A DNA stretch of 64,000 nt from Candidatus Sulfotelmatobacter sp. (GTDB lineage: Bacteria > Acidobacteriota > Terriglobia > Terriglobales > Acidobacteriaceae), in assembly GCA_017883385.1 (NCBI GenBank), contig JADGNQ010000011.1:1-64000 (forward strand), read 5' to 3'. Numbering within the stretch: position 1 is the first letter of the stretch; every line of letters starts with the position of its first letter. Shown here piece after piece: positions 25,721-45,835 of the stretch. Both the position numbers and the translations under genes were made by a program. The notes below the pieces were generated by a model, which searched no databases, was not told the DNA's origin, and was given only the letters and a program-made list of their open reading frames with translations.

Positions 25721-25743
25721 CCCAAGCCGTCAAACAAACTACT

Positions 25744-26757: not shown

Positions 26758-26864
26758 CGTAGATCGATAGTTCGAGGAAAAAGTGCGGGAGTTCTCCTGC
26801 TGTTGTATAGTTACGAAAGATTGTGTTTTCTTTCGTTATGCAGCGACACTCAGGAGAGGGAAAC

Positions 26865-29114: not shown

Positions 29115-29160
29115 GTTTCAATCTGCAGACACGCGATGGTCTGTTGGCCGCTGATTCGTT

Positions 29161-29198
29161 CCGCCGGGCTGCGCCTCGGCGGGACGGCCGAGGCGGCC
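29161..29198. terminator. Hairpin pair between convergent genes
   Basis: Two adjacent GC-rich stems, CCGCCG/CGGCGG with a 10-nt loop and GGCCG-AGG-CGGCC, lie between the GH36 gene and the convergent PfkB gene. There is no T-tract. They could slow or end transcription from both sides, or be another copy of the palindrome clusters seen elsewhere in the window. Confidence 0.4.
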
Positions 29199-29213
29199 AT
29201 CCCCACATGAGTG

Positions 29214-30143
29214 CTAGTGCTCTCGGAAGAAGCTCTTGCGATGTTCGGCGTCGCGGAAAGCTTCGGTGCCGCCGGGACGCGTTGTGGAGAGTGCCCCTGC
29301 CAGATTGCCGCTGGCTAAGCACGCCGGCAGGTCGGCGCCGCGCACGTACTGGTGGAGAAAGCCGGCGTCGAAACTGTCGCCGGCACCGACTGTATCCACG
29401 GGCACGACTTCCAGCGATGGACTGAGGTGGCGCTCGCTGCCGCGCTGGGCCAGGGCTCCTTTGCGACCGAGTTTCACCACGACCAGGGGCACCAGCTCGG
29501 AAAGCTTGTGGATCGCGGCTTCCAGGTCTTCCATTCCCGCCGCCTTGCAGGCCTCGCGTTCATTCGGTAGGAAGACATCAACGTGCTGCAGAATTTCGTG
29601 CAGCCCGCCCTCCCACCGGTCGTCGGGATCGTCGTTGGTGTCCAGAGAAATCGTGAGTCCCTTGGATTTCAGCCTCTGCAACAGCTCGCTCACCCGCGGG
29701 CGCAAGCCTCGCTGCAAATAATAAGACGAGAAATGAAAGTGACGCGAGTCGGCAAGGTAGTCGAGGTCGAGATCGTCCCAAGCTAATTCTGCAATTGTTC
29801 CCGCATAGGTGAGGATGTTGCGCCAGGCTTCGTGATGCAGGATCACGGTGAGCCCGGTTGTGACAGAGCCGGGAACGCGACGCACGAGCGATACATCGAC
29901 CCCGCCTTGCTGGAGGCGATCGAGTGCGATCTGTCCGAGAGGGTCGTCACCGATGCGGGATTGAAATCCCACGCGGCTGCCGAGTGCGGCGAGGTTGTGC
30001 GCCACGATTGCGGAAGACGAACCGAGCGTGAGCATCATACGGTCGGCGAGCAATTCGCGTTCGGGCGGAAGTTGCTCGGGAAGACCATAGAGGATAAGGT
30101 CGAGGTTCAGTTCGCCGGCGATTGTAACGTCAAAACGAGGCAT
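29214..30143 (-). CDS. PfkB-family sugar kinase, substrate unknown
   Basis: A 309-aa ribokinase-fold kinase: VTIAGELNLDLILYG at the N-terminus, LTLGSSSAIVAHNLAALG for substrate binding, and VDTVGAGDSFDAGFLHQYV with the catalytic Asp. It differs clearly from the fructokinase upstream (the second motif is GSSSA, not GGAPAN), so it probably acts on another sugar or nucleoside. It lies 39 nt downstream of a DeoR-type repressor gene in the same orientation, a common pairing for induced sugar catabolism. Confidence 0.82.
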   Translation of the reverse strand: MPRFDVTIAGELNLDLILYGLPEQLPPERELLADRMMLTLGSSSAIVAHNLAALGSRVGFQSRIGDDPLGQIALDRLQQGGVDVSLVRRVPGSVTTGLTVILHHEAWRNILTYAGTIAELAWDDLDLDYLADSRHFHFSSYYLQRGLRPRVSELLQRLKSKGLTISLDTNDDPDDRWEGGLHEILQHVDVFLPNEREACKAAGMEDLEAAIHKLSELVPLVVVKLGRKGALAQRGSERHLSPSLEVVPVDTVGAGDSFDAGFLHQYVRGADLPACLASGNLAGALSTTRPGGTEAFRDAEHRKSFFREH

Positions 30144-30182
30144 TGGGGGCTTGGGGTATTCGCTTTCAGAGCGGCACGAGCA

Positions 30183-30944
30183 TCAGACCAGGGTGACCTC
30201 AACTCCGGCCTGCTTCAACACCCGCAGGTCCGATTTCGGGATGCCGCGGTCGGTGATGACTTCCTGCAGCGCCGATGGCGGAGCGATCAAGGACAAGCTG
30301 CGGCGGCCGAACTTGCTTGAGTCGCAGACGGCCACCGTTTTCTTGGCAACCTCGACCATCACGCGATTGACTTTCGCTTCCAGCAGATTGGGCGTGCTCA
30401 ATCCGAACTGCACGTCGAAGCCATCAACCCCAAGAAACAAAAGATCGGCGCTAAGCCGGCGCAGCGTTTCTTCCGCAATCGGGCCAACCAGGGAAAAGGA
30501 ATTCTTGCGCAGGGTGCCGCCGGTAAGAATTACTTCCACCGCGGTTCCGGCCAGTTCGGCAGCAATGTTCACCGCATTGGTGATGATCGTAAGGTTCTTG
30601 AAATTGCGCAGGGCGCGGGCAATGGCGGTGGTAGTAGTGCCGGAGTCGAGAATCAGGACCTGGCCTTCCTTCACTTTGGCCGCGGCGCCGTCCGCGATGC
30701 GCAGTTTTTCCTGGCGGTGGAGCTTTTCCTTTTCCCGAAGCGTCGGGTCTTCGAGCGCACCGTCGCGCGCCGGCAGTGCTCCCCCGTGGGTGCGGTGAAC
30801 TAGGCCGTGAGCGTGCAGGATCTCAAGATCCTTCCGAATCGTAACCTGCGAGGTTTCGAACTGGCTGGCGAGTTCGGTCACCAAAACCCGTCCTTGGTGG
30901 GTGAGCAGATCGAGGATGGCGCGACGGCGTTCTTCGTTGAGCAC
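30183..30944 (-). CDS. DeoR-family transcriptional repressor
   Basis: A 253-aa DeoR/AgaR-type regulator. The N-terminal HTH (RRRAILDLLTHQGRVLVTEL, then FETSQVTIRKDLEIL and LVHRTHGGAL) is followed by a DeoR C-terminal sensor domain with ILDSGTTTTAIARAL, VILTGGTLRKNSFSLVGP and LFLGVDGFD. This class binds sugar phosphates. It probably represses itself and the downstream PfkB kinase. Upstream of its start, around 31005-31030, a TTTTGTTTCGTTTGT stretch resembles the TTTCGTTT elements found in several DeoR operators. Confidence 0.9.
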   Translation of the reverse strand: MLNEERRRAILDLLTHQGRVLVTELASQFETSQVTIRKDLEILHAHGLVHRTHGGALPARDGALEDPTLREKEKLHRQEKLRIADGAAAKVKEGQVLILDSGTTTTAIARALRNFKNLTIITNAVNIAAELAGTAVEVILTGGTLRKNSFSLVGPIAEETLRRLSADLLFLGVDGFDVQFGLSTPNLLEAKVNRVMVEVAKKTVAVCDSSKFGRRSLSLIAPPSALQEVITDRGIPKSDLRVLKQAGVEVTLV

Positions 30945-31292: not shown

Positions 31293-31613
31293 TTGACACC
31301 TATATCAACAGATCAGATTTTGGTTCGCTCCCACTCGGTGGTCGCGCGGGTGATTGCTGGAGAAACGTTGATCGTCCCGGTGCGCGCCAAGGTGGGCGAC
31401 CTGGCTTCAATCTACAGTTTCAACGGCACCGGTTCCCTGATCTGGAAGTTGCTGGAGTCGCCGAAAACGTTGGCGGAGCTCGCGATGGCAGTTGCGCAGG
31501 AATATGAAGTAGAGCCCGCGCAGGCCGCGCAGGATGTGACGGAATTTGTGGGTGAGATGAAGGCGGTTGGTCTGGTCGAGGTCCCGGCAGCGCTAGCAAT
31601 GGCAGGGGACTGA
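31293..31613 (+). CDS. PqqD-like peptide chaperone (RiPP recognition element)
   Basis: A 106-aa PqqD-family winged-helix protein. PqqD/RRE proteins bind the leader of a ribosomal peptide and present it to the modifying enzyme. Seen: VVARVIAGETLIVPVRAKVGDLASIYSFNG with the usual beta strands, GSLIWKLLESPKTLAEL, then an amphipathic helix VAQEYEVEPAQAAQDVTEFV and the C-terminal strand. The TTG start has AGGAG eight bases upstream; 52 in-frame codons before it lack PqqD similarity and a ribosome site. It is the first gene of the putative RiPP operon and probably recognises the YxxPxL leader of the small peptide two genes on. Confidence 0.85.
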   Translation: MTPISTDQILVRSHSVVARVIAGETLIVPVRAKVGDLASIYSFNGTGSLIWKLLESPKTLAELAMAVAQEYEVEPAQAAQDVTEFVGEMKAVGLVEVPAALAMAGD

Positions 31614-31640
31614 CGGTCCAGTGGGGCGGGAAGGACTGGC

Positions 31641-31672
31641 AGCAGCGGGCGTGTGAGATCGCGTCCGCTGCT
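31641..31672 (+). promoter_or_regulatory. Intercistronic hairpin in the RiPP operon
   Basis: AGCAGCGG pairs with CCGCTGCT (8 bp, extended by CG/CG across a one-base bulge), followed by TTTC, in the 76-nt gap between the pqqD-like and radical-SAM genes. It may be an RNA-stability or partial-termination element setting the ratio of chaperone to enzyme. Confidence 0.4.
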
Positions 31673-31689
31673 TTCAGACTGGAGGGGGT

Positions 31690-32955
31690 TTGGAGCAGTT
31701 AAGTTACGGTGCGTTTAGCGCAGATTTGCATCAGCGCCAGGGCGGCGAACGTGTGCCGCTGCAGGTTTCGATTGAAGTGACGCGGCGCTGTCCGCTGGAG
31801 TGTCTGCACTGCTACAACAATCTGCCCATGGGCGACATGGAAGCCAGGCAGCGGGAGTTGAGCAAGGAAGAGCACTTCCGAATGCTCGACGAACTGGTCG
31901 AGATGGGCTGCTTCTGGATTCTCTACACCGGTGGCGAAATTTTCGCGCGCAAAGATTTCCTCGAGATTTACACCTACGCCAAGAAAAAAGGATTCCTGAT
32001 CACGCTGTTCACCAACGGCACGATCATCAACGAACAAATTGCGGATTACCTCGCAGAGTGGCCGCCGTTTGCGATTGAGGTTACGCTGTACGGGCGCACG
32101 CGGGAGACGTATGAAGCGCTCACGGCGATTCCAGGATCGTATGACCGGTGTTTGCGCGGAATTGGCCTGCTGAAGCAGAGAGGGCTGCCGCTGAAGTTGA
32201 AGACGGTGGCCACCAGCATCAATAAGCATGAAATTCTGGCCATGAGGCAATTCGCGGAAGAAGAGTTGGGTGTCGAGTTCAAGGCGGACGGGCAGATTAA
32301 TCCGCGGATTGATTGCTCGCAGAGTCCGCTGGCAGTACGGCTCACGCCGGAGGAAGTAGTGGCGCTGGATATGCAGGATCCGAAGGTGGCCAGCGAGTAC
32401 CGAAAGCTGGCGGCGCGCGATTTTGGCAATCCACCCAACCTGTCCACCGTCGACACTGTGTATATCTGCGGCGGTGGGTTCAATTCCTTCGCGGTGAATG
32501 CTTATGGGGAAGTTGGCATTTGTGTCATATCGCAGCAGGAGACATTCAGTATCCGAGGGGCTGGAATCAAGCTGGTCTGGGAGGAGTCGCTCCGCCAACT
32601 GCGAGACCGCAAACGCACGCGTGTGACGAAGTGCGTCGAGTGCCGCATCCAGTCGTTGTGTGCGATGTGCCCAGCGAACGGCGAGCTGGAAAATGGGGAC
32701 CGTGAGAGCCCGGTGGCGTTTCTCTGCAATGTGGCTCATCTGAGAGCGGCGTCGATTGGGGCCGAGATTCCGGCGCATGGGGAGTGCGAATTCTGTGCGG
32801 GCGGCAGCGAATACGAGGCCCTGCTGGAATCGGCGCGCCGGATTTCCAATAAAGAGATCGACGTTGAGAGTTGGGTCGGACCGCAGCACATCTTGCCGAT
32901 CCTGAACAATTCAAGCACGGCAGCAGGGGGATGCGGAAGTTGTGGGAATCACTGA
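31690..32955 (+). CDS. SPASM-domain radical SAM peptide maturase
   Basis: A 421-aa radical SAM enzyme. The AdoMet [4Fe-4S] site is TRRCPLECLHCYN (Cys 34, 38, 41). GGEIFARKDF and the ITLFTNGT strand are typical of the PqqE/anSME/sactisynthase group. The C-terminal half has a Cys-rich SPASM region for auxiliary clusters: Cys about 260, 278, 315, 318, 324, 327 and 346, with further Cys in GECEFC. A terminal GGCGSCGNH tail resembles a peptide-like extension. The TTG start lies four bases after GGAGG. Such enzymes form carbon-sulfur or carbon-carbon crosslinks in Cys-containing peptides; the gene 24 nt downstream encodes a suitable substrate. Confidence 0.88.
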   Translation: MEQLSYGAFSADLHQRQGGERVPLQVSIEVTRRCPLECLHCYNNLPMGDMEARQRELSKEEHFRMLDELVEMGCFWILYTGGEIFARKDFLEIYTYAKKKGFLITLFTNGTIINEQIADYLAEWPPFAIEVTLYGRTRETYEALTAIPGSYDRCLRGIGLLKQRGLPLKLKTVATSINKHEILAMRQFAEEELGVEFKADGQINPRIDCSQSPLAVRLTPEEVVALDMQDPKVASEYRKLAARDFGNPPNLSTVDTVYICGGGFNSFAVNAYGEVGICVISQQETFSIRGAGIKLVWEESLRQLRDRKRTRVTKCVECRIQSLCAMCPANGELENGDRESPVAFLCNVAHLRAASIGAEIPAHGECEFCAGGSEYEALLESARRISNKEIDVESWVGPQHILPILNNSSTAAGGCGSCGNH

Positions 32956-32978
32956 GTCGACGACGAGAGGGAGTCTGA

Positions 32979-33155
32979 ATGAATCACGAATTGAATCAGG
33001 GCGATAATCGAAAGCCCTATGAATCGCCGCAACTCGTCACGATCAATCTGCGGCCTGAAGAGGCCGTTCTAGGGCATTGCAAAAACGCTTCGGGGGGTGG
33101 ACCCACTCCAGGCTGCGGAATCATCCTGGGCGGTTGCCAAAGTCTCGGATCGTAA
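32979..33155 (+). CDS. Probable RiPP precursor peptide (58 aa)
   Basis: A 58-codon gene, too short for ordinary ORF calling, with GAGGGAG about six bases before its ATG and placed between the radical SAM and HPr-kinase-like genes. The N-terminal half is leader-like and polar and contains Y14-x-x-P17-x-L19, the YxxPxL motif that RRE/PqqD proteins bind in lasso-type leaders, followed by INLRPEEAVLG. The C-terminal ~26 residues are Gly-rich with three Cys (34, 46, 53) in the pattern C-x11-C-x6-C, ending GGCQSLGS. A crosslinked thioether peptide (sacti- or ranthipeptide-like) is a reasonable prediction. Modification and function are unproven. Confidence 0.75.
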   Translation: MNHELNQGDNRKPYESPQLVTINLRPEEAVLGHCKNASGGGPTPGCGIILGGCQSLGS

Positions 33156-33187
33156 ACGACTACGCATTTAACGGAGCTGGTTGCGCG

Positions 33188-34126
33188 ATGACCGATGATC
33201 TTACGTATGTACCGGCGAGTCCGTGGGTCGCAGCCGGCGGAGTGTGGAGTAGCCACTTCTGCGTGGGTGGCGTCGTCGTCCGACTCACCGGCGCTGACGA
33301 CGCGGCGGTTACTTTAGTTCCATCCTTAGTGCCGTTTCGGACCAAGTCGGGTCCCCCAGACATTAACATCCAAGTTGAGTGGGTTGACGACCTGAGTTCG
33401 ACGTCGGGACTCCAGTTGTTCGACTCGGGCGCTCTTTGGCGATTGTATGAGTGCGATGCAGGTTTTCAATTCGACTTCAGTGCACCGGTGTTCGGCGGTC
33501 AGCCCTATAAGAGGCTGGTCGTGGACAGTGATTTCTCTCTTGCGACTCTGCAAATGAGCGGAGAGGTTTACGCCGCGTTCCCGAGTGCGGCTCCTCTGGG
33601 CTATCCGCTGGATGAATTGCTGATTATGCACCGGCTCACGCAGGAGAAGGCGATTGAGCTGCATAGCTGCGGCATCGTCAGGCCGGATGGGACCGGGAAT
33701 TTGTTTGTCGGTCATTCCGGGGCGGGGAAGAGCACGACGACTCGGCTGTGGACTGCGCGCGAGGACGTTGAGGTTCTGAGTGACGACCGGATTATTGTTC
33801 GGCGGGACACAACAGAAAACTCAGGGCGGATGCGGATGTACGGTACTCCGTGGCATGGCGAGGCGGCGTATGCTTCGCCGGGGAGCGCGCCGCTGGCTAG
33901 GATCTTCATTCTCGAACACGGGCACGGGAATGTGCTGACGCGGCTGTCTCCGAGCCAGGCTGTAGCGGAATTGTTTGCGCGCAGTTTTGTGCCGTTTCAC
34001 CGGCATGAGTATGTGGATTCGGCGCTGCAGTTTCTGCAGGAAGTTGTGGATGTGGTTCCATGTTACCGCTACGCCTTTGAGCCCAACGAAGACGCGGTTG
34101 AGAGGATTCTCGAAATCCGTGACTGA
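33188..34126 (+). CDS. HPr-kinase-like ATPase of the RiPP operon
   Basis: A 312-aa protein whose C-terminal half resembles the HPr kinase/phosphorylase catalytic domain: PLDELLIMHRLTQEKAIELH, Walker A GHSGAGKSTTTRLW (about 175-188), and LSDDRIIVRR. The N-terminal ~140 residues are an unrecognised beta-rich domain. Stand-alone HPrK-like proteins are known in RiPP gene clusters, including lasso-peptide clusters where they phosphorylate the precursor. A kinase or handling role on the 58-aa peptide is therefore plausible. There is no PTS HPr gene nearby. It overlaps the giant downstream gene by 8 nt. Confidence 0.8.
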   Translation: MTDDLTYVPASPWVAAGGVWSSHFCVGGVVVRLTGADDAAVTLVPSLVPFRTKSGPPDINIQVEWVDDLSSTSGLQLFDSGALWRLYECDAGFQFDFSAPVFGGQPYKRLVVDSDFSLATLQMSGEVYAAFPSAAPLGYPLDELLIMHRLTQEKAIELHSCGIVRPDGTGNLFVGHSGAGKSTTTRLWTAREDVEVLSDDRIIVRRDTTENSGRMRMYGTPWHGEAAYASPGSAPLARIFILEHGHGNVLTRLSPSQAVAELFARSFVPFHRHEYVDSALQFLQEVVDVVPCYRYAFEPNEDAVERILEIRD

Positions 34127-37100
34127 CCGTTCCCAGGCCGATCGATCCCAGGAATATCTTGCGCGAACCGACCGTCCCCAAACGAAACTGTTTGAAGCGA
34201 TCAGCCGGGAGTTGCTGCGGGAGGGGAATGGCATCCGCTTTCAGGCGTGCGGCGCCAGCATGTCTCCAGCGATTCGCGATGGCGAGATCGTGCACGTGGA
34301 ATCCACCGTGCCGGTGGAGTTGCGCAAGGGAGATATTGTTCTAGTGAAGGGTGAAATGGGATTCCGGCTGCACCGGTTGGTGGTCGCTGACGCCGAGCAG
34401 GATGTCTACATCACGCGCGGTGATTGCGGGCAGCAGGACGACCCGGCGGTCAGCGGGAAAGAGATTGTCGGCATTGCTGCGGCCAAAGAGGTGCGAGTGG
34501 GATCGAGGATGGTACGCGCGAAGCTGAAGGGATTGAGTGGGCGGCTCGTTTGCGCCGTCGCGCGCGGACAAAGGATCGCCACGAGATTGTTGAATCGACT
34601 CACGACATCGACGCATGGAACCCGGAAAAACGTGCGCGTGTTTCCATGTCTGTTGGCGTTGTTGTTCGTGCTATTTGCGGCAACCTACTCGAGTGCCCAA
34701 GTTCTGGTCGACGCCACGACATTAGCATCGGCAGCCCTCGCCGGTACGGGTACGAGGACTCTGACTTTTAACCACACCACGACTGCAACAGCCAATAGGG
34801 TGCTCGTTGTCGGAGTGTCGATCAATATCACAAATAACAATGCCACCGTGGTCAGCGGCGTGACGTACAACGGCGTCGCTTTGACTCAGATCGGCGCGCA
34901 CAATGACACCGGCGGTACGCGCCGGGTCGAAATGTGGTATTTGCTGGCTCCAGCCAACGGGGCTCACAACGTCATAGTCTCTGTGACTATTCCGTCAGCG
35001 GTCACGGTCGGCGTTGTAGCCGGCGCGACCACCTTTAAGGGGGTAGATCAGACAGTCCCTCTGGGGACGTTCGTTTCGGCGGATGGAGCAGCTGGTGTGT
35101 GCACCGGCATCGCAACGGGCTGTAGCGCAGTTGACGTGCCAAGCGTGGTGAATGGCATGATCCTGGACACACTTGCCATTGGAGGGAATCGAACCGTCAC
35201 CGTCCCCGCACCTCAGGTGTCCCAGTGGAATCTGAACAGCGCAGGAACTGCAAATCCTGGTGTGACGGGCAGCGGAACCAGCCGCACGGGAGCACCCAGC
35301 GTTCCGATTTCTGAAATTTTCAGCGGCACATCGAACTGGTCGCTCGGAGCGGTGTCGATCAATCCGAGCACCGCGGACATCGGGGTCTCAACCAGTGTCA
35401 GTGCGGTGGCGCTCGGTCAGAACTCCACCTACAACATCACAGTTACAAACAATGGGTTGTCGCCGGCGAACGCGGTTTCCCTGACCGACACGCTGGCTGC
35501 GTCCGGACTTACATGGGTGTCGACGACACCGAGTGCCGGGACCACTTGCGTGGGAACTGGCCCAATTACCTGCACGCTCCCAACTCCTTTTGCCAGTGGA
35601 GCGATCGCGACAGTAGCAGTCGTCGTGACTGCTTCCGCGGCCGGTTTCTATCCGAACACGGCGACTGTGTCGGACTCCGGAACGCCGCCCGACCCGAATA
35701 CGGGAAACAATACTTATGTGTCGCTGGCGCCGGTTGTGAGCATCGTTTGTTCTACGACTACTCTGACCGCGGCCCCCGTACCTCTAGCGGGCGTACTGAA
35801 TACGTACTTTCCGGGAACCGCGAACGCGGCGGTTGGAGCTACGTCAATTCCTGTGGGTACATCGGCCGGGGCGGGAGGCACAATCGCGAACGGAAGCCTG
35901 CTGCTGGTGATTCAGATGCAAGACGCCAGCATCATCACCACGAACGATGTGACCTATGGGAACGGCAGCACGGGCACCGGTTTCAAGACGATCAATAACG
36001 CCGGCAACTACGAGTGGGTGAAGGCGACTGGGCCGGTGGCTGGCGGGTTCGTGCCCATCACGGGAGCGGGCACCGGCGGCGGGCTGGTATTCGGATACAC
36101 GGCAGCAGCGGCCACGGCGACGAAGGGAAAAAGCACATATCAGGTCGTGCTGGTGCCGCAATATACGACCGCTACACTGGGCTCCGCGACGGCGACTCCC
36201 TGGAACGGATCCACGGGTGGGATTCTCGCATTGGACATTGCCGGACAACTCAATCTGGGTGGCGCCAACGTATCCGTCGACGGGCAAGGGTTCCGCGGCG
36301 GCGCAGGAATGCAGTTGGTCGGTGGAGTTGCCGGCGCCGTAAACACGGACTTCCGACAAACGTCGCCTGCGGCCTACACCGGTGCTGCAGGTGGTGCCAC
36401 CGGCATTGATGGTGCCAAAGGTGAGGGTGTCGCGGGTACGCCGAAATGGGTGGAGTCCGGCGGGACCTTTCTGCAAACCACGGCCACGATTGGCTATCCA
36501 AATGGCGCCGCCGACGGCAGTATGGCGAACGGGGCGCCTGGCAATGCGGGCGGAGGCGGAACGGATGGGGATGCGGCTGGCAACACCGAGAATGCTGGCG
36601 GCGGTGGCGGCGGCAACGGTGGATCGGGTGGGTTTGGCGGGGACTCGTGGTTTGCAAACCTGAGTGATGGAGGCGAAGGTGGATCTCCGTTTCCGGCGAC
36701 GATTGACCGCATCGCGATGGGTGGCGGCGGCGGCGCGGGGTCGCGGAACAATTCCGACAGTGACAATCAGGCCAGCAGCGGAGCAGCGGGCGGTGGAATC
36801 ATCTTTATTCGCGCGGACAGTTTGACGGGCACGGCGACTCTGACCGCGAATGGCGCTAGCGCCTACAACGGGACCGACCGTGATGCGGGTGGAGGAGGGG
36901 GCGCTGGCGGAAGCATCATTGTGTTGGCGGCCAACGGCGGCGAGAGCGGGCTGACGCTGCAAGCGAACGGCGGGCGAGGCGGAGATGCCTGGGATTCGCA
37001 GCCCTTCAGCTTGGGCGACCGTCACGGGCCGGGCGGCGGAGGCGGAGGCGGGGTGATTCTTGTTTCTGGCGCTCCCGCAAGCATTACAGTGACGGGCGGA

Positions 37101-40100
37101 GTAAATGGGACGACGTTGAACCCAGGCGTAGCTTACGGAGCTACCGTGGGGACAGCGGGGACAAGTGCTACGACCGCCACGCTGGCTCAGGTGACGGGCA
37201 TACAGTCAGCGGCGCTGTGCACTCCCGATATGACGCTGGGCAAAAGCCACGCGGGGAACTTTACGCGTGGTTCAGCCGCCATTTATACGATTCCGGTTTC
37301 GAACATCAGCCCGTTTGGATCTACCAGCGGGGTCGTCACCATCAATGACACGCTCCCGCTCGGCATCACACCGATCAGCGCCACCGGAACCGGATGGACC
37401 TGCTCGGTTCTAGGGCAGACCGTGAGTTGCGTGCGCTCCGATGTGCTGGCGGCTATCAGCAGCTATCCGTCGATTACGCTGAATGCAGTCGTTTCGCAGT
37501 CAGCTCCGGCGACGCTAACGAATACTGCTTTGGTCGGCGGGGGAAATGAAGCCAACCTGCTCAACGACCTCGCCACCGACGTTGCGATCGTGGTATCGAG
37601 CGCCGATCTCAGTGTGACTGACGCGGGTTCGCCCAACCCAGTGGCGGCGGGAAGCAACATTACTTATACGCAGGTCGTGACCAACAACGGTCCGAGCGCC
37701 GCCGACAACGCCACGGTGGTGGCGAAGATTCCGGCGAATACGACGCTCGTGTCGTTCGTGGCGCCGGCGGGATGGAGTTGCATTTCACCCGGAGCTGGAG
37801 GCACGGGCAACGTTGTCTGTACCTTCGCCAACATGCCGGGGTTGACGGCGGCTTCGTTCACTCTCGTGGTCAAGGTGAATAACGGGACGGCGAATGGAAC
37901 CGTGATCACGGAGACGGTGTCGGCAAATTCGTCCGCCCTCGATCCGAATTCCCTGAACAATACCGCCTCAGTCGCCACGGTTGTGGGAACGACAGCTCCG
38001 GATTTGACGGTGACCAACGTGGCCTCGCCAAACCCGGTGCAGGCGGGCAACAATATCAATTACACCCAGGTCGTGACGAACACCGGAACGACCCCGGCGA
38101 CCACCGCCACGTTCAACGAAACCACTCCCGCGAATACGACGTTTGTATCGATTACTCCACCCGCGGGCTGGAGTTGCGCCGGGTTCCCACCGCTATGCAC
38201 GAATCCAAGTGTCGCGGGTGGCGCGACCGGGACCTTTACCGTCGTCTATAAGGTGACGGCCCTTACACCCAGCGGTACGGTGATTACCGACACTGCCACC
38301 GTCAACGCGGCGAACCAGGCCTTCGGAGCCAACTCGGCAACTGCGACCGATGTGGTGGCGACGGCGATCCAGGCCGACCTTGCGCTGAGCACAGTGGGCA
38401 CGCCGGCCACCGTTTTCTCTGGCAACAACATTACTTACACGCAGACGGTCACCAATAACGGTCCGGCGGCAGCAACGGGAGCGAGTTTCACGGAACCGAT
38501 CCCGACGAATACCACATTTTCTTCCGTGTCCGCCCCAGTTGGTTGGACCTGCACGGTGACAGCTTCGGTGACGTGTACGAACCCGAGTTTTGCAGCGGGG
38601 GCATCGGCCGACATCATCGTAGTCGTGAACGTTGCACCTTCGATAGCGGCGGGCACGATCACCGCAAATTCCTCCGTTACTGCCACGACAGGGGATCCCA
38701 ACGCGGCGAACAACAGCACCACAGTCACCACCACAGTTGCTCCCGTCTGCGACCTGCAGGTGACCAACAGCGGAACTCCGAACCCCGTAGCGGCGGGCGG
38801 CGTCATTACTTATACACAGGTGATCACCAACACCGGGCCCAGTAATTGCAGCACGGCGACGTTCAACGAGGCGCTGCCGTTGAACACAACGTTCCTGTCC
38901 GTGGCGGTCGTGACCGCCGGCGGCGGGACGTGGACTTGTCCTAACGCTTCACCGGTGGCGTGTACCAATCCCAGCGTGCCGCCCGGTTCCACGGGAACGA
39001 TCACGGCGAAATACACCGTTCTCGCCGGCACGGCTGCAGGGACCATCATCACCGATACCGCCACGGTGGCCACGACAGGGCGAGACACCAACCTGGCCAA
39101 CAACACCTCCACGGTCAGCATTGCCGTGGCCTCGGGCGTGCAAGCCGATCTGAGCGTGACGAATTCGGGTAGCCCGAATCCGGTGACGGCGGGCAACAAC
39201 ATCACCTACACGCAGAGCGTGACCAACGGTGGCCCGGCTATCGCGGCGGCTCCGGTGTTCACCGAGACCCTTCCAGCGAATACCACCGGCGTGTCGTTGA
39301 CCGGACCCGCGGGATGGACATGCGTCCTCGCAACTCTAACGTGTACGGATACGACCACGATGGCGGCCAATACCACGGCGAACTTTACCTTCGTGGTGAA
39401 GGTGCTCACAACCGTGGCGTCGGGAACAACCATCACGCAGACCGATTCGGTGTCTTCGACGACCGTCGATCCCACCAACGCGAACAACAGTTCGACCGTA
39501 AACATCCAAGTAGCCGGCTCGGCCGATCTTTCCGTTACCAACACGCCCAACCCGGTCCCAGTGTTGGCGAATAACAACATCATCTACACGCAGGTGGTGA
39601 ACAATGCCGGGCCGAGTTCCGCGACGACAGTGACTCTGACCGAGACTCTGCCCGCGAATACGACTGCCTTAACGCTCACCGGGCCAGCGGGATGGACGTG
39701 CACGCTGGCTACTCTGATCTGCACGAATCCCGCTCTTGCGCCCGGAACCCCCGCAACCATTATTTTCACGGTAAAAGTGACTGCACTCACTCCTGCCGGG
39801 ACGGCGATCAACGACACCGTGAGCGTCGGTTCTGCGGTCACCGATCCTAATCTGGCGAACAACAGTGCTACAGCGGCGGATGTGGTTGCCCTTGGAACCC
39901 AGGCAGATCTGGTCGTGGCGAATTCCGCCGCACCCACTTCAGTGGCTGCCGGAAGCAACGTTACTTACACCCAGAGCGTTACGAATAATGGTCCGGCTGC
40001 GACGACTGCGGGGATGACCTTCACGCAGACCACGCCGCCGAATATGAGCTTCCAGTCGATTACTCCTCCCGCAGGATGGATTTGCGGGACCGTCCCGCCC

Positions 40101-43100
40101 GTGGGCGGTACCGGCACCATCACCTGTACGGACCTTGGCACTCTGGCGCAGGGTGCCACAGCGAACTTCACGCTGGCGCTGCAGGTGAATGCCGGCACGC
40201 CGTCAGGGACGACCATCACTGAGACTGATACTGCCACCGCATCGAACATTGTGCCCGGACTCACGACGAACAGCGCCAGCGCCACCGTGATTGTCGCCAA
40301 TGCCAATAGCGCGGACATGGCGATCGTGAAGACGGCGACACCGAATCCCGTGACAGAGGGAACTCCGCTCACCTATACACTGGCCGTGACCAATAACGGC
40401 CCTGCCTCCGCAACCAATGTCACGGTAACGGACACCCTGCCTTCGGTAGTGACGTTTCTCTCGTCAAACACGACCCAGGGATCGTGCTCCGAGGCGGGTG
40501 GATCTGTAACGTGTCTGTTGGGCACCATGGCTAACGCGGGGACCGCGACGATCACGATCCTGACCATTCCGGGGACGCCGGGCGTGGTTTCCAACACCGC
40601 GACGGTCGCGGCAGACCAGACCGACCCGACCCTGGCGAATAATTCCTCAACTCAGACGGAGACGATCACGGCTCCGACTAGGATCACGCTGCAGTCGTTC
40701 TCGGCGCGCCTCGGCACCGACAATAGCGGTACGAGTCGCGTAGTGCTGACATGGAAGACGGGCGGCGAATCGCACAACCTCGGATTCAATGTGTACCGCG
40801 ATCAGGGCGGAAACCGCGCGCGCATGAATCCGTCGGTGATTGCGGGTTCGGCGCTGCTCATGAGCGGCGCGCTGCCCAAGCACTCAGGCAGGAGTTATGC
40901 CTGGATCAATCCCTCTGCTGGCCTCGCTGGTGCTAGATACTGGCTGGAAGACATCGATGTGAACGGCACGCGCACCATGCATGGGCCAGTTTCCGCTGAG
41001 GCCGGAACGGAACTGGGGAGCGATGCTTTCGCGGCGGAGACGCGTATGTTCAGCCAACTGACTCAGGCGCAACCCGCAGCGCCAGGTAGTCGCGTCGTCG
41101 AGACTCTTCCCCTGCAGCCAGCGCCGAATCCCAGCCAGATTCAGAAGCAGTTCACTCTGGCGGCGCACCCGGCGGTCAAGATCTTGGTACAACACGAGGG
41201 CTGGTATCGCGTGGCGCAGCCGGATCTGGTGAGAGCTGGACTCGAGCCGAACGTGGATCCGGCGCTGCTGCACCTGTTCGCGGAAGCGAATGAGCAGCCG
41301 TTGCAGATCACGGGAGCGACGGCTGGTCCGGGCGGCTTCGGGCCGCTGGCGGCGATCAGTTTTTACGGCACTGGCATCGACACAGTCTTTTCGGGCACAC
41401 GCGTGTACTGGCTGGCGGCCGGTGAGGCGCGCGGTGCGCGCATCCCACGTCTGCAGGCCTCTTCGGGATCGAACCTGCCTCCAAAGAGTTATTTTGCAAC
41501 CGTGGAACTGAAGCAGCGTACCACCTACTTTGCGGCGCTGCTCACGCTGAGTGGGGACAATTTCTTCGGCGCTTTCGTTTCACCCACCCCGGTAGATCAG
41601 GTGCTGTACCTCCCGCACCTCGACACAACTTCGACGCAAACCGCGCGGCTTGAGGTCGACCTGCAGGGGGTGATCAATGCCTTCCCGCATGACGTGAAGA
41701 TAGCTCTGAATGGAACCACCATCGGAGACCTTACGTTCACCGGCCAGATAAGGGGCAGGTTCAGCGCCAGCGTGCCGCCAGGGGTGCTGCAAGAGGGGAA
41801 CAATACAGTCACATTAACGTCGGAGAATGGAGATTACGACACCAGCCTGGTCGTATTCATCCACATCATGTATCCGCATACTTACATGGCGGACTCCAAC
41901 CAACTAAAGTTTACGGGACGTGCGGGTGACGAACTGAAGATCGGCGGCTTCGACGGAGCGCCGGCGGTGCTCGACATTACTGATCCAAGTCGACCGGTGC
42001 AACTGACGCCGCAAGTTTCCTCGAGCAACGGCAAGTATGAAATCGCAGTGCAGGTGCCTTGGACGACTACAAGTCCGGCGCCGCCTGGATGGCATACGCT
42101 TCTCGCCGTGCCCGGCGACCGAGTTGCGTCGGTAGCGGGGCTGCGGCCGAACCATCCGTCCCATTGGCACAGTGTTCAGCCGGGTGCTGACATTGCCATG
42201 GTCACGTACGAGGCGTTTGAGGGAGCGCTGGCGCCGTTGGTTCGCGCGCATCAGGCGGAAGGGAAAACGTCGGCTGTCGTGCCGATCACGGATCTGTACG
42301 ACGAATTCAACTTTGGGGAGCGCAGTCCATTCGCAATTCGGCAGTTCCTGCAGACTGCTACGCAGAACTGGAAGAAGGCTCCGACCTATCTGCTGCTGAA
42401 CGGGCGGGCATCGCTCGATCCGCGGAACTACCTTGGTTTCGGTCACCTCGATCTGGTCCCGACTCAGATTCTGGCCGCGACCAGCTTGATGACAGCGTCG
42501 GATGACTGGTTCTCTGACTTCACCGACAGTGGCATGCCTACCATCGCCACGGGGCGCCTGCCGGTGAGCACTGCGGATGAAGCCAAGACCGTGGTCGGGA
42601 AGATTGTCGCCTACGAAGGAAAATCCACCGATGGCCCGTGGACCTCACAAGCCCTCATGGTTGCCGACAAGGACGATACCGAGAGCTTTACGCAGGACAC
42701 CCAGAAGGTCCAGTCGAAAGTCCCGGCGACCATGCAGGTGACAGACGTGTTCAACGGTACGGTCGGAACTACGACTACCCGCCAGATCATTATTGACGGC
42801 ATCAACTCCGGCCAGTTGCTGGTGAACTATCTCGGGCATGGTTCGGAAGAGCAGTGGTCCGGGTCCAATATATTCGACACGAATTCTGTGACTTCCCTGA
42901 CCAATGGATCGCAGCTTCCAGTGTTTCTGATCATGAACTGCCTGAATGGGTTCTTCCAGGATGTGTACGCGCAACCGCTGGGCGTGACCCTGCTCCTGGC
43001 GCCGAACGGTGGCGCGGTAGCCGTCCTGGCCTCCACCGGCCTGAACCAGCCCCTACCGCAAACCAGGCTCGACGCACTCATCGTCCAAAACGCCCTGAAT

Positions 43101-43241
43101 GCCGCGCCCCTGACTTTGGGCGAATCGATTCTCAAGGCAAAGTCGCAAATCGGCGACCCGGCCGTGCGCCGAACCTACGTTCTGTTTGGTGATCCTGCGC
43201 TGCAGGTCAAGCAGCCTTCGGCGGCGCCGACGGGACATTGA
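34119..43241 (+). CDS. Giant S26 peptidase - DUF11 repeats - C25 protease fusion
   Basis: About 3040 aa from a GTG overlapping the HPrK-like stop. Domains in order: S26 signal-peptidase-like (about 30-130; GASMSPAIRDGEIVHV with Ser about 47, FRLHRLV with His about 85, ITRGDCGQQDDPAV). Then a basic segment and signal sequence (about 172-195, VFPCLLALLFVLFAATYSSA). A beta domain follows, then one DUF11 repeat (about 418-535) and a Gly-rich region (about 800-990). A block of about nine more DUF11 repeats spans about 1037-2184, then an FnIII-like domain. A gingipain-type peptidase C25 domain ends the protein (NYLGHGSEEQW, His about 2907; MNCLNGFF, Cys about 2941). No T9SS sorting domain is seen. 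An internal GTG at 34632 could start the secreted part alone. Confidence 0.85.
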   Translation: MTDRSQADRSQEYLARTDRPQTKLFEAISRELLREGNGIRFQACGASMSPAIRDGEIVHVESTVPVELRKGDIVLVKGEMGFRLHRLVVADAEQDVYITRGDCGQQDDPAVSGKEIVGIAAAKEVRVGSRMVRAKLKGLSGRLVCAVARGQRIATRLLNRLTTSTHGTRKNVRVFPCLLALLFVLFAATYSSAQVLVDATTLASAALAGTGTRTLTFNHTTTATANRVLVVGVSINITNNNATVVSGVTYNGVALTQIGAHNDTGGTRRVEMWYLLAPANGAHNVIVSVTIPSAVTVGVVAGATTFKGVDQTVPLGTFVSADGAAGVCTGIATGCSAVDVPSVVNGMILDTLAIGGNRTVTVPAPQVSQWNLNSAGTANPGVTGSGTSRTGAPSVPISEIFSGTSNWSLGAVSINPSTADIGVSTSVSAVALGQNSTYNITVTNNGLSPANAVSLTDTLAASGLTWVSTTPSAGTTCVGTGPITCTLPTPFASGAIATVAVVVTASAAGFYPNTATVSDSGTPPDPNTGNNTYVSLAPVVSIVCSTTTLTAAPVPLAGVLNTYFPGTANAAVGATSIPVGTSAGAGGTIANGSLLLVIQMQDASIITTNDVTYGNGSTGTGFKTINNAGNYEWVKATGPVAGGFVPITGAGTGGGLVFGYTAAAATATKGKSTYQVVLVPQYTTATLGSATATPWNGSTGGILALDIAGQLNLGGANVSVDGQGFRGGAGMQLVGGVAGAVNTDFRQTSPAAYTGAAGGATGIDGAKGEGVAGTPKWVESGGTFLQTTATIGYPNGAADGSMANGAPGNAGGGGTDGDAAGNTENAGGGGGGNGGSGGFGGDSWFANLSDGGEGGSPFPATIDRIAMGGGGGAGSRNNSDSDNQASSGAAGGGIIFIRADSLTGTATLTANGASAYNGTDRDAGGGGGAGGSIIVLAANGGESGLTLQANGGRGGDAWDSQPFSLGDRHGPGGGGGGGVILVSGAPASITVTGGVNGTTLNPGVAYGATVGTAGTSATTATLAQVTGIQSAALCTPDMTLGKSHAGNFTRGSAAIYTIPVSNISPFGSTSGVVTINDTLPLGITPISATGTGWTCSVLGQTVSCVRSDVLAAISSYPSITLNAVVSQSAPATLTNTALVGGGNEANLLNDLATDVAIVVSSADLSVTDAGSPNPVAAGSNITYTQVVTNNGPSAADNATVVAKIPANTTLVSFVAPAGWSCISPGAGGTGNVVCTFANMPGLTAASFTLVVKVNNGTANGTVITETVSANSSALDPNSLNNTASVATVVGTTAPDLTVTNVASPNPVQAGNNINYTQVVTNTGTTPATTATFNETTPANTTFVSITPPAGWSCAGFPPLCTNPSVAGGATGTFTVVYKVTALTPSGTVITDTATVNAANQAFGANSATATDVVATAIQADLALSTVGTPATVFSGNNITYTQTVTNNGPAAATGASFTEPIPTNTTFSSVSAPVGWTCTVTASVTCTNPSFAAGASADIIVVVNVAPSIAAGTITANSSVTATTGDPNAANNSTTVTTTVAPVCDLQVTNSGTPNPVAAGGVITYTQVITNTGPSNCSTATFNEALPLNTTFLSVAVVTAGGGTWTCPNASPVACTNPSVPPGSTGTITAKYTVLAGTAAGTIITDTATVATTGRDTNLANNTSTVSIAVASGVQADLSVTNSGSPNPVTAGNNITYTQSVTNGGPAIAAAPVFTETLPANTTGVSLTGPAGWTCVLATLTCTDTTTMAANTTANFTFVVKVLTTVASGTTITQTDSVSSTTVDPTNANNSSTVNIQVAGSADLSVTNTPNPVPVLANNNIIYTQVVNNAGPSSATTVTLTETLPANTTALTLTGPAGWTCTLATLICTNPALAPGTPATIIFTVKVTALTPAGTAINDTVSVGSAVTDPNLANNSATAADVVALGTQADLVVANSAAPTSVAAGSNVTYTQSVTNNGPAATTAGMTFTQTTPPNMSFQSITPPAGWICGTVPPVGGTGTITCTDLGTLAQGATANFTLALQVNAGTPSGTTITETDTATASNIVPGLTTNSASATVIVANANSADMAIVKTATPNPVTEGTPLTYTLAVTNNGPASATNVTVTDTLPSVVTFLSSNTTQGSCSEAGGSVTCLLGTMANAGTATITILTIPGTPGVVSNTATVAADQTDPTLANNSSTQTETITAPTRITLQSFSARLGTDNSGTSRVVLTWKTGGESHNLGFNVYRDQGGNRARMNPSVIAGSALLMSGALPKHSGRSYAWINPSAGLAGARYWLEDIDVNGTRTMHGPVSAEAGTELGSDAFAAETRMFSQLTQAQPAAPGSRVVETLPLQPAPNPSQIQKQFTLAAHPAVKILVQHEGWYRVAQPDLVRAGLEPNVDPALLHLFAEANEQPLQITGATAGPGGFGPLAAISFYGTGIDTVFSGTRVYWLAAGEARGARIPRLQASSGSNLPPKSYFATVELKQRTTYFAALLTLSGDNFFGAFVSPTPVDQVLYLPHLDTTSTQTARLEVDLQGVINAFPHDVKIALNGTTIGDLTFTGQIRGRFSASVPPGVLQEGNNTVTLTSENGDYDTSLVVFIHIMYPHTYMADSNQLKFTGRAGDELKIGGFDGAPAVLDITDPSRPVQLTPQVSSSNGKYEIAVQVPWTTTSPAPPGWHTLLAVPGDRVASVAGLRPNHPSHWHSVQPGADIAMVTYEAFEGALAPLVRAHQAEGKTSAVVPITDLYDEFNFGERSPFAIRQFLQTATQNWKKAPTYLLLNGRASLDPRNYLGFGHLDLVPTQILAATSLMTASDDWFSDFTDSGMPTIATGRLPVSTADEAKTVVGKIVAYEGKSTDGPWTSQALMVADKDDTESFTQDTQKVQSKVPATMQVTDVFNGTVGTTTTRQIIIDGINSGQLLVNYLGHGSEEQWSGSNIFDTNSVTSLTNGSQLPVFLIMNCLNGFFQDVYAQPLGVTLLLAPNGGAVAVLASTGLNQPLPQTRLDALIVQNALNAAPLTLGESILKAKSQIGDPAVRRTYVLFGDPALQVKQPSAAPTGH
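37602..40674 (+). repeat. Tandem DUF11-encoding DNA repeats
   Basis: Eight consecutive units of about 375-410 bp lie inside the giant gene. Each begins with a coded A-D-L-x-V-T-N-x-x-x-P-N-P-V core and contains NNITYTQVVTNNGP and a C-containing AGWTC segment. Unit starts are near 37602, 37998, 38373, 38750, 39146, 39523, 39905 and 40313. DUF11 modules are Ig-like cell-surface spacers. Units are diverged but homologous, so recombination or assembly collapse could change their number. Confidence 0.85.
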
Positions 43242-43306: not shown

Positions 43307-44659
43307 TCATTGCGCGCTCTTCGAATCGAAGACCTGGAACTCCCTGATATGTGCCTCCGCGGTTGAGGAAAGGATATTCAATCGCACCCGGCTGGCAGTC
43401 ACTGGCGCAAAGTGGTCAAGACGCTTGTGTCCAATGGCCTGCCCTTTCGCGACCTCGACCCACTTCCCGTCTTTGTACACTTCGATGGCGTATTTCTCGA
43501 CATGCTGCCCGGCGTTTAGCCATTCCATGGTGAGCACACGATCGAAGGTGATTGGGCGGCCCAAATCCACCTCGATCACGGCATGATGTGACCCGGCGGG
43601 GGCCGACCAGAACGTGTCGGGATTGCCGTCCAGCGCGAGTTCTAGCTCCGGAGCCGTGGGGGCATGTCTCGCAGTCAGGTTGTTGCCATATCGCTCGCGA
43701 ATGGCTGATCCGAATTCCTTCAGTCGCTGCACATCGGCGTCGGGCAGGAGGCCCCGACGGTCCGGAGCAATCCCCAACATGAGCTGCCCGCCGCGGCCGA
43801 CGGTCTGCTCGTAAGTGGAAACCAGTTCCGGCACGCTCTTGAGGCTCGACTCGTCGTTTGGATGCCAGAACCAGTGCCCCTTGCGCAGCGGAGTGTCTGC
43901 TTCGACCGGCCGCCATCGCAGGTTTCCGTGGCGGTCGATCACATTCCAGTTCTCGTAAGGAATCGTTCCGTCTTCATTTCCCACCCAACGGATGTCCCCA
44001 TATTCGAAGAGCCCGACGTCGGCAAAAACCAGCGCGTTCGGCTGGTAGGTGCGTAGTTCTTCAATAATATGCGGGAAGTTATAGACGTGTCCGCCGCTGC
44101 CCGCGCCGTCGAGCCAAAACTCCTCAAGGTCGCCGTAGCCTTGTGCCAGTTCGTCCAATTCCGCCGCGTAATACTTGTCGTATTCGGCCGAGTTACTGTA
44201 GCGGGGTTCGTGGCGGTCCCACGGAGACAGGTAGACTCCGAACTTCAAGCCATATTTTCGCGCGGCTTCCTCAACTCGTTTCACTACATTTCCGTTGCCG
44301 TTTTCCCATGGGCTGCTCTTGACACTGTAGTCGGTCTGCCCTGTGGGCCACAGACAAAATCCATCGTGGTGCTTGGCCACGAAGACCACGTACTTGATTC
44401 CAGCAGACTGCAGCGCCCGCATCCATTGGTCGGGATCGAATTGCGCGGGATTGAATACTTTCGGATCCGCTTTGCCGTCGCCCCATTCCCGGTCGAGAAA
44501 GGTGTTCGTACCGAAGTGGATGATCGCGCCCATCTCGAGATCTTGCCAGTCGACCTGCTGCGGAGACGGCTTGAGATCGCTGAAAGTCTGGGCCCAGAGC
44601 GTGGCCAGAAAAATCGTCAACAGCAAGACAACATCTAGAACGCGTATGGGCCGAGGCAT
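43307..44659 (-). CDS. Exported GH29 alpha-L-fucosidase with discoidin-like domain
   Basis: 450 aa with a signal peptide (VLDVVLLLTIFLATLWAQ). The GH29 catalytic domain (about 25-335) shows EMGAIIHFGTNTF, KYVVFVAKHHDGFCLWPT, FGVYLSPWDRHEP and DLEEFWLDGAGSG, in which Asp about 184 is the expected nucleophile. The C-terminal ~110 residues are an F5/8 type C (discoidin-like) sugar-binding domain, with ALDGNPDTFWSAP and AVIEVDLGRPITFDRVLTMEWL. It removes alpha-L-fucose from glycans outside the cytoplasm. The start is the ATG just before the signal peptide; the long in-frame extension upstream runs antisense to aroF and is not coding. It converges with the giant protease gene. Confidence 0.9.
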   Translation of the reverse strand: MPRPIRVLDVVLLLTIFLATLWAQTFSDLKPSPQQVDWQDLEMGAIIHFGTNTFLDREWGDGKADPKVFNPAQFDPDQWMRALQSAGIKYVVFVAKHHDGFCLWPTGQTDYSVKSSPWENGNGNVVKRVEEAARKYGLKFGVYLSPWDRHEPRYSNSAEYDKYYAAELDELAQGYGDLEEFWLDGAGSGGHVYNFPHIIEELRTYQPNALVFADVGLFEYGDIRWVGNEDGTIPYENWNVIDRHGNLRWRPVEADTPLRKGHWFWHPNDESSLKSVPELVSTYEQTVGRGGQLMLGIAPDRRGLLPDADVQRLKEFGSAIRERYGNNLTARHAPTAPELELALDGNPDTFWSAPAGSHHAVIEVDLGRPITFDRVLTMEWLNAGQHVEKYAIEVYKDGKWVEVAKGQAIGHKRLDHFAPVTASRVRLNILSSTAEAHIREFQVFDSKSAQ

Positions 44660-44742
44660 GGCGAAAATCGTAGCATCCCCCGCGGCGGTATGCACGGGAG
44701 TGATCGTTAGATATTGCCGGATCGGCCGGATCCTCCTCATCA

Positions 44743-45777
44743 CTAAGATGCCGCGGACACCGCAACGGGCAGGCTGGCAGTCCGCCGCAGCGGTTCCGCC
44801 AGCGCCCGCATCACTTTTCCGAATCCCGCGAAGTCGAGGGATTGAGGCCCGTCCGAGAGCGCGCGTTCCGGGCAAGGATGCACCTCGATGATCAAACCAT
44901 CGGCGCCCACGGCGACGGCTGCACGGGAAACCGCCGCAATCAGGCTCTGCTTGCCGGTTCCGTGCGAAGGATCGGCAATCACCGGAAGGTGCGACAGATC
45001 CCGGGCTAAAGCCACGGCGGCGAGGTCGATAGTATTGCGCGTTTCGGTTTCGAAGGTCCTGATGCCGCGCTCGCAGAGCACGACATTGGGATTGCCCCCC
45101 GAGAGCAGGTATTCCGCAGCCAGCAGCCACTCTTTGACAGTGGCTGACGGGCCCCTCTTCAACAGGATGGGCTTGTTGACGGTGGCCAGACGGCGCAGCA
45201 GGGCGAAATTCTGCATGTTGCGCGCCCCCACCTGCAGCATATCCACGTGCTCGCAGATGACGTCGATATCCTCGGTGCTCATCACCTCCGTGATTACGGG
45301 CAAGCCGGTGACTTCCCGGGCTTCCCGCAGGATCTTGAGCGCCTCCAGGCCGAGTCCCTGAAAGTCATAGGGGGAGGTCCGCGGCTTGTAGGCTCCGCCT
45401 CGCAGCATAGCCGCTCCTGCGCGCTTCACGGCGTGGGCCGTGTCGAGCAGTTGGTCACGCGACTCGACGGAGCAGGGGCCGGCGATCACGACGACCTCGG
45501 GGCCGCCGATCGCCACGCCGTTTACCTTCACCACCGTGCGTTCCGGCTTCACCTGGCGGCTCACCAGTTTGAACGGCTGGGCAATGGCGACGACGTTGTC
45601 AACGCCTGGCGCGACCTGCAGTGCTTCGATCTCGTGCCGGCGTCCACTACCCACGGCGGCGACGATCGTGCGCTCCGTGCCGCGGGTGACATGAGGTTGG
45701 TATCCGGCTTCTCGGATTCGTTCAATCACGTGGTTGATCTCCTGCTCGGTTGCTTTTTCGGACATGTTGACGATCAT
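44743..45777 (-). CDS. aroF: 3-deoxy-7-phosphoheptulonate (DAHP) synthase
   Basis: 344 aa. It condenses phosphoenolpyruvate and erythrose 4-phosphate in the first step of the shikimate pathway. The N-terminal ~75 residues are a ferredoxin-like regulatory domain ([20 protein letters not shown]), as in the Thermotoga-type enzyme that is feedback-inhibited by Phe/Tyr. The barrel has [54 protein letters not shown] and [18 protein letters not shown], which include the PEP- and metal-binding residues. AAGGAG seven bases before the ATG sets the start. A complete aromatic-codon attenuator precedes the gene. Confidence 0.95.
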
Positions 45778-45800
45778 CGCGGTTCTCCTTGTGGGTTTCC

Positions 45801-45835
45801 CCAAAACAAAAGCCGCGATCTCTGGATCGCGGCTT
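45801..45835 (-). terminator. Attenuator terminator in the DAHP synthase leader
   Basis: Read on the minus strand, AGCCGCGATC-CAGA-GATCGCGGCT forms a perfect 10-bp stem (11 with the flanking A-T pair), followed directly by TTTGTTTT. It ends the leader about 25 nt before the aroF start codon. Its 5' arm overlaps the 3' arm of an alternative antiterminator helix. Confidence 0.9.

Follow-up and report, generated by a model that had tools for sequence, protein, structure and literature searches.

Closest described systems

Two described systems of ribosomally synthesised and post-translationally modified peptides (RiPPs) come closest to a five-gene operon at positions 31293-43241 of contig JADGNQ010000011.1 of Candidatus Sulfotelmatobacter sp. 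(Acidobacteriota, GCA_017883385.1), analysed here within the first 64,000 nucleotides of the contig (the window). The system of linear polyphosphorylated peptides (LPP; Popov et al., 2026, PMC13381572), whose primary modification is polyphosphorylation, combines a discrete RiPP recognition element (RRE), an archaeal-type signal-peptidase-like leader peptidase with Ser, His and Asp, an HprK-like kinase and a precursor with a YxxPx leader. Its peptidase LppS removes the leader of the LPP precursor when the RRE is present, cutting after the Thr of Phe-Glu-Thr, and its Ser, His and Asp are required. Lasso clusters of the paeninodin and pseudomycoidin type (PMC9266682) contain a PqqD-type B1 protein, a YxxP or WxxP leader, an HPrK-type kinase and, in some, a nucleotidyltransferase; the kinases PadeK, ThcoK and PsmK phosphorylate the C-terminal Ser of the lasso precursor and need a His-Lys-Asp-Asp motif. 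LPP has been called restricted to Bacillota, and the roles of LPP and paeninodin are stated as unknown (PMC13381572). The present locus is from Acidobacteriota.

It is rather probable that this operon makes a RiPP, matured by a PqqD protein, a radical S-adenosylmethionine (SAM) enzyme, a kinase and an S26 domain, and that the giant protein carrying the S26 domain is exported with a C25 domain that acts with the peptide. The features of the operon are as follows.

31293-31613, plus strand: PqqD-type RRE, 106 residues, TTG start with AGGAG ahead (Pfam PqqD 2.9e-17)
31690-32955, plus strand: radical SAM/SPASM maturase, 421 residues, with CxxxCxxC, seven SPASM-type Cys and C-terminal HGxCxxC (Radical_SAM 3.4e-19)
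32979-33155, plus strand: precursor peptide, ATG start, 58 residues, leader YxxPxL and LRPEEAVLG, core xCK...C...C..GS
33075-33152, plus strand: proposed core peptide, residues 33-58, given the predicted cleavage after Gly32
33188-34126, plus strand: HPrK-like kinase, ATG start, 312 residues, with His159, Lys181, Asp199 and Asp200
34119-43241, plus strand: giant protein gene, GTG start, 3040 residues, encoding S26, signal-anchor, DUF11 and C25 parts
34119-34625, plus strand: S26 (archaeal/SipW/SEC11-type) peptidase domain, with Ser47, His85, Asp102 and Asp108
34626-34697, plus strand: positively charged linker end, hydrophobic signal-anchor and small-X-small|Q site
34698-42197, plus strand: region predicted to be exported, comprising an AgmC-like stretch, 10 stretches of DUF11 repeats and, ahead of C25, a PorU-like part
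42198-43208, plus strand: Peptidase C25 (gingipain/PorU-like) domain, PF01364 9e-78, with His (YLGHG) and Cys (NCLNG)

An earlier note, made from the DNA letters, had read the same five co-directional open reading frames (ORFs) at the same coordinates, and of the identities it gave, PqqD, radical SAM, DUF11 and Peptidase C25 were borne out by Pfam and NCBIfam. Its description of the genes as tightly packed holds for the kinase and the giant gene, where the GTG start of the latter overlaps the stop of the former, but not for the PqqD and radical SAM genes, which are separated by 76 nt.

The three components of LPP maturation have counterparts in the operon: an RRE (PqqD 2.9e-17), an S26 domain with S47, H85, D102 and D108, and a kinase with an HprK-like motif and a fold search of low TM-scores. 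The leader is also of the YxxPx type, and some diverged relatives of the locus carry an MsbA-like exporter or an NTP_transf_5 protein, as LPP clusters do (PMC13381572). The differences from LPP are as marked. The present locus has in addition a radical SAM/SPASM enzyme and three invariant Cys, and its presumed leader peptidase is fused to DUF11 and C25. The LPP leader consensus is YxxPxVLxHQxIxFETxxS, whereas here YxxPx and a hydrophobic residue are followed by LRPEEAVLGxCK. The Ser is at core position 3 in LPP and C-terminal here, and the NTP transferase and MsbA-like exporter of the LPP cluster were not found in the window. With the phosphorylated lasso clusters the operon shares the PqqD-type protein, the His-Lys-Asp-Asp kinase, the C-terminal Ser and the leader type (PMC9266682); it differs in having a radical SAM enzyme instead of a cyclase and B2 peptidase. 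An asparagine-synthetase-like macrolactam cyclase and a B2 peptidase were absent from the five operon genes; of the other window ORFs nine were scanned. By analogy the cassette should work like an LPP or phosphorylated lasso system up to leader removal, but it is a member of neither: not LPP because the leader, the Ser position, the exporter and the nucleotidyltransferase differ, and not lasso because the cyclase and B2 are not in the operon.

Sactipeptides and ranthipeptides resemble the locus in having a SPASM-type maturase beside a Cys-containing precursor and an RRE, and differ in that no NCBIfam cut-off was reached here; to our knowledge a kinase and an S26 peptidase are not part of these systems. 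SynChlorMet (TIGR04248-04251) has a PqqD-like protein, ScmC, which is HPrK-like by the match obtained here, and two radical SAM/SPASM proteins, and two of the diverged cassettes (L107, L110) resemble it. The window proteins scored 18-86 bits against cut-offs of 100-400, and proteins of L107 and L102 were also below. SynChlorMet, GeoRSP, HPr-rel-A and the other NCBIfam systems were rejected, as no cut-off was reached by the window enzymes or the tested L107 and L102 proteins. The C25 domain, with its His and Cys, is like that of gingipains and the type IX secretion sortase PorU, and differs in falling under the PorU cut-off of 420. SprA of type IX secretion gave no match in the genome and none in the control genomes either.

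The earlier note knew of no described system with this set of genes. That has to be narrowed: the RRE, signal-peptidase-like leader peptidase, HPrK-like kinase and YxxP leader form the published LPP set (PMC13381572). The main text of that paper, as available, makes no mention of radical SAM, SPASM, Acidobacter or C25, and no description of the full gene set was found in the literature searched (titles and abstract openings, apart from PMC13381572 and PMC9266682). Within that literature, the addition of a radical SAM enzyme with Cys and the fusion to C25 appear new.

Precursor peptide

Genome contigs were searched with the radical SAM protein for relatives of the operon, which gave 34 loci. 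A homologue of the peptide lies directly after the radical SAM gene in 32 of them; in the other two (L034, L040) the contig stops within the radical SAM gene, so the peptide ORF is kept beside the enzymes in every relative where this could be seen. Fifteen positions are invariant in 33 sequences (Y14, P17, L24, R25, P26, E28, A29, V30, G32, C34, K35, C46, C53, G57 and S58); elsewhere the core differs in both sequence and length. Loss of the peptide ORF from related loci and lack of conservation of its Cys and YxxP residues had been named beforehand as findings that would refute the proposal; neither was seen, and the Cys and YxxP residues were invariant. The pooled ratio of non-synonymous to synonymous change (pN/pS) was 0.28 over twelve hand-chosen pairs. 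The 58-residue peptide has no Pfam or NCBIfam match at E 1. A chance ORF was rejected on the presence of the peptide in 32/34 relatives and the pN/pS of 0.28.

A profile of the peptide matched at least 48 of 396 Acidobacteriota genomes in at least 33 of 210 genera, these being lower bounds because the profile missed the genome of L173 and only 16 candidates were scored in most of the genomes listed. In the group around G396, 7/201 genomes matched, G396 included, and the window genome has one match. Of 56 further peptide places outside the window genome, 40 regions were fetched and searched with in-house profiles that had been iterated on these same loci; gene counts in these regions are lower bounds, several contigs being short. 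Some genomes hold several precursors, some of them unlinked. Precursor-like peptides without cassette enzymes in the fetched region were seen at L083, L101, L104 and L106, with an HPrK match elsewhere in those genomes, and these are possible unlinked extra precursors. L028 and L035 carry non-matching taxonomic labels, which may be binning or naming errors.

Recognition element and radical SAM enzyme

The best NCBIfam matches of the PqqD protein are lasso PqqD chaperones, under cut-off, and its best sequence match in the Protein Data Bank (PDB) is 9x8z, 'PqqD family protein' (9.8e-5). The role of recognition element that the earlier note had given it is supported by comparison, the YxxP leader being invariant. 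The radical SAM protein reached no NCBIfam cut-off; its seven SPASM-type Cys are invariant in 20 sequences. Its tail reads GGCGSCGNH (window 32926-32952), and Cys-Gly-rich tails are found in most of the relatives shown.

HPrK-like kinase and the C-terminal serine

The kinase sequence gave weak matches to HprK_rel_B, ScmC and Hpr_kinase_C. Its AlphaFold2 model has a mean predicted confidence (pLDDT) of 92.3, and a Foldseek search returned PEPCK first (5e-8) and HPr kinase at rank 49 (5.8e-5). PEPCK and HPrK have a common P-loop fold. The kinase motif is conserved at His (100%, n=66), Lys (100%, n=65), Asp (100%, n=65) and the second Asp (95%). An HPrK profile match is present in 34 of the 40 fetched peptide regions.

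A C-terminal Ser was found in 71 of 72 complete peptides (33/33 of the window type and 38/39 others from the phylum search), a count that the peptide profile, which ends in GS, favours somewhat; many hits aligned only to position 53-55. The peptide of L086 is cut by a contig end and stands outside this count. Peptides whose core can otherwise hardly be aligned still have the terminal Ser. Because the Ser is near-universal, lasso kinases set a precedent and the His-Lys-Asp-Asp motif is conserved, we predict by analogy that the HPrK-like kinase phosphorylates the C-terminal Ser; the suggestion that the kinase acts on the peptide gains support from the same Ser and catalytic residues. A second, weak HPrK-like match lies in the window genome at G000:C2:6044-7566, close to an NTP_transf_5 match, and is perhaps another phosphorylated-peptide cluster.

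S26 domain and leader cleavage

The S26 domain matches TIGR02228 (archaeal signal peptidase) at 5.8e-9 with 36 of 51.85 bits, under cut-off, and its nearest solved relative by profile is SEC11C (1.9e-8). The catalytic residues are conserved (Ser 96%, His 100%, Asp 100%). In one alignment of S26 stretches the rows of the frame-broken L014 and L015 are unreliable, as they were translated straight on. This conservation argues for the S26 domain as a maturing protease, as had been proposed. The earlier observation that lasso-like parts occur without a B2 protease is accounted for if the S26 domain replaces B2.

In diverged homologues a small residue follows two hydrophobic residues at the place matching the LppS site (VLG, VLA, VLT or ILG). 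Because this pattern matches the LppS site by analogy, the cut in the window peptide was placed after Gly32, where the leader is probably cleaved; Ala29 is the alternative. The S26 domain is a separate gene of the cassette in L075, L077, L078, L080, L081 and L097, all from other Acidobacteriota.

Giant protein and C25 domain

Pfam DUF11 matched the giant protein in 10 stretches (1.5e-142). Its AgmC and PorU NCBIfam matches are under cut-off, PorU with 218 of 420 bits. The C25 His and Cys are invariant where aligned (n=35 and 31). Both domains, S26 and C25, were found in 23 sequences, the window among them, and in 19 of these a single ORF encodes the two; the frame is broken in L008, L014, L015 and L029. 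An assembly artefact was rejected as the origin of the fusion, given one ORF in 19/23 sequences. The window and 23 of 29 relatives have a start codon that the giant gene could use 8 or 14 nt ahead of the stop of the kinase gene.

The 19 fused sequences have no strong membrane segment before S26, where and within which peak hydropathy is 0.56-1.44. After S26 they show a net charge of +5 to +10, a hydrophobic stretch of 1.76-2.41 and a signal-peptidase-like site, mostly before Q; L026 has the least hydropathy contrast. This order of hydropathy, charge and cleavage site suggests that S26 is in the cytoplasm and that the remainder of the giant protein is exported.

The C25 domain is the sole PF01364 match in the window genome. 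Across the phylum, C25 was matched in 136/396 genomes, 31/48 with the peptide against 105/348 without (Fisher p 6e-6, which is optimistic as the genomes are related by descent). It is present in 16 of the 40 fetched peptide regions, in 15 on the peptide strand; in L073 it is on the opposite strand, ~11 kb off. It may stand ahead of the cassette, as in L090, L094, L100 and L105, or behind it. On a tree of 46 C25 sequences (35 cassette and 11 other; 11 window-clade loci listed in advance and rows <450 residues, including L073, L170, L176 and L179, were excluded) the cassette-linked ones cluster, with 6 changes against a shuffled mean of 10.0 and 0/500 shuffles as low, near relatives not being allowed for.

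Twenty further C25 neighbourhoods had been selected on grounds other than the peptide (15 from genomes without a peptide match and 5 second C25 genes of peptide genomes). Cassette enzymes were matched in six of them: L171, L173, L175, L177, L183 and, with partial matches only, L180. Since C25 is common, its adjacency might be trivial, and this was considered in view of the split of 6 with and 14 without cassette enzymes. C25 is a frequent partner of the cassette, apparently an old one, and not an obligatory one.

A second precursor type was seen near C25, HPrK, PqqD and radical SAM genes in L171 (12375-12557), L175 (9249-9422) and L177 (18774-18944), all on the minus strand. It has the form [YW]xxPxI...PLE with two Cys and a terminal Ser, and was found by a loose pattern search without a chance control. 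In the same search L173 gave a relative of the L105 peptide, L180 gave a candidate that ends in Gly in a genome without HPrK at E 1e-5, and L183 gave none.

Occurrence of the cassette across Acidobacteriota

Gene order varies among the 40 fetched regions. The radical SAM enzyme was matched in 34/40, PqqD in 29/40 and S26 in 25/40. Six of the 40 contain a full-size ABC exporter-like ORF and 13 an NTP_transf_5-like ORF; NTP_transf_5 also matches at two other places in the window genome.

In L107 (15189-17213, minus strand) and L110 (4893-6914, plus strand) a radical SAM domain and an HPrK-like kinase are encoded in one frame of ~675 residues. Each of the two cassettes has three matches to radical SAM, and its peptide has a leader of the WxxP type, RPEExxLxxCK-like.

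Around the window operon, at 21956-30944 and 43307-45804, lie an outer-membrane beta-barrel protein, two PfkB kinases, a melibiase, a DeoR regulator, an alpha-L-fucosidase and a DAHP synthase. A PfkB kinase and a DeoR gene adjoin the cassette in 11/34 relatives. One terminator-like match is present inside the operon on the plus strand, and the region holds fewer such matches than its own shuffles.

Proposed mechanism and rival explanations

The gene set, the conservation, the catalytic residues, the fusion and the C-terminal Ser were observed directly; we infer the chemical steps as follows. The PqqD protein would bind the YxxPxL leader and present the precursor to the radical SAM/SPASM enzyme, which would modify the core, most likely by forming thioethers with some of the three Cys that never vary. 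Phosphorylation of the invariant C-terminal Ser would fall to the HPrK-like kinase, on the model of PadeK, ThcoK and PsmK with lasso peptides. Leader removal, probably after VLG (Gly32), would be the task of the S26 domain, as it is of LppS; this domain would stay on the cytoplasmic side as the N-terminal part of the giant protein. The peptide would then be exported, and the exported part of the giant protein would carry C25, acting with the peptide outside either as a processing or attaching enzyme or as a target under peptide control. The RiPP reading of the earlier note is supported at the level of sequence by the invariant YxxP leader and Cys, the near-universal C-terminal Ser and the conserved S26 and HPrK catalytic residues.

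Several findings weigh against this scheme. The SPASM match of the radical SAM protein is 0.003, under the Pfam cut-off. The HPrK assignment rests on a model whose fold matches have TM-scores <=0.45, and the kinase profile found ABC-type P-loops first among PDB sequences, with HPrK at 0.0016. The S26 model matches SEC11C, signal peptidases and LexA weakly (best E 2.8e-3). The peptide of L074 ends in Thr, its kinase lying on another contig of that genome, and the profile bias toward GS bears on the Ser count. L035 has the peptide and C25 without S26 or kinase in 21 kb (the kinase is on another contig, and the Ser is kept). No C25 match was found in 17/48 peptide genomes, and 14/20 other C25 neighbourhoods had no kinase or radical SAM match, two of them with a lone weak PqqD match. 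An exporter and a nucleotidyltransferase were not found in the 64-kb window by phmmer with the relatives' proteins, and the window genome has no C39 peptidase. With no exporter in the window and no C39 in the genome, the exit of the peptide is unexplained.

As to what the product does, a more far-reaching possibility, to which we give somewhat less than even chances, is a dedicated protease-RiPP pair: one chain would release a crosslinked, C-terminally phosphorylated peptide inside, and its PorU-like C25 outside would use, attach or be controlled by the peptide. Rather unlikely is a free-standing signalling or antimicrobial RiPP, with the C25 giant accompanying the cassette as a surface-biology accessory, without contact with the peptide, and S26 fused for co-expression only. 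Cassettes without C25 in the fetched region (L087, L088, L089, L091, L092, L097, L102, L107 and L110, some on short contigs), ABC exporters beside some cassettes and the several precursors of some genomes, unlinked ones included, all fit such a product. The S26-C25 fusion kept in diverged relatives counts against it, as do the presence of C25 near cassettes of quite different peptide type (L171, L175, L177) and the clustering of the cassette label on the C25 tree.

The crosslinked gamma subunit of quinohemoprotein amine dehydrogenase offers a comparison for another view, in which the peptide would be a short subunit, structural or cofactor, of the giant exported enzyme, or a tethered protease inhibitor. 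This view would account for the small size and constraint of the peptide, for the single peptide match and single C25 match of the window genome, for the joining of leader peptidase to protease in the same chain and for the lack of an exporter match in the window; the wide variation of the core in length and sequence and the existence of cassettes without C25 in reach speak against it, and we regard it as unlikely. It is very improbable that the locus makes no RiPP, the small ORF being a regulatory leader or binding module and PqqD and the radical SAM enzyme acting on a different substrate, for instance the giant protein. No family match was obtained for the peptide and the product of the operon is not known, which leaves room for this reading, but the leader-type YxxP motif, the invariant Cys, the terminal Ser, the pN/pS of 0.28, the unlinked extra copies in kinase-bearing genomes and the likeness to LPP clusters, for which phosphorylation and cleavage were measured (PMC13381572), are all contrary to it.

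Significance

The operon extends the LPP logic of RRE, signal-peptidase-like leader peptidase and HPrK-like kinase to Acidobacteriota and adds a radical SAM step. It yields a precise, testable prediction for an uncharacterised kinase, whose target would be the C-terminal Ser. The enzyme presumed to remove the leader forms one polypeptide with a giant exported C25 peptidase, which hints at what such peptides may work with; when a fusion of domains persists in diverged lineages, it can be of help in assigning function. If the pair model is true, the RiPP would not be a natural product that is released but would work in partnership with a surface protease.

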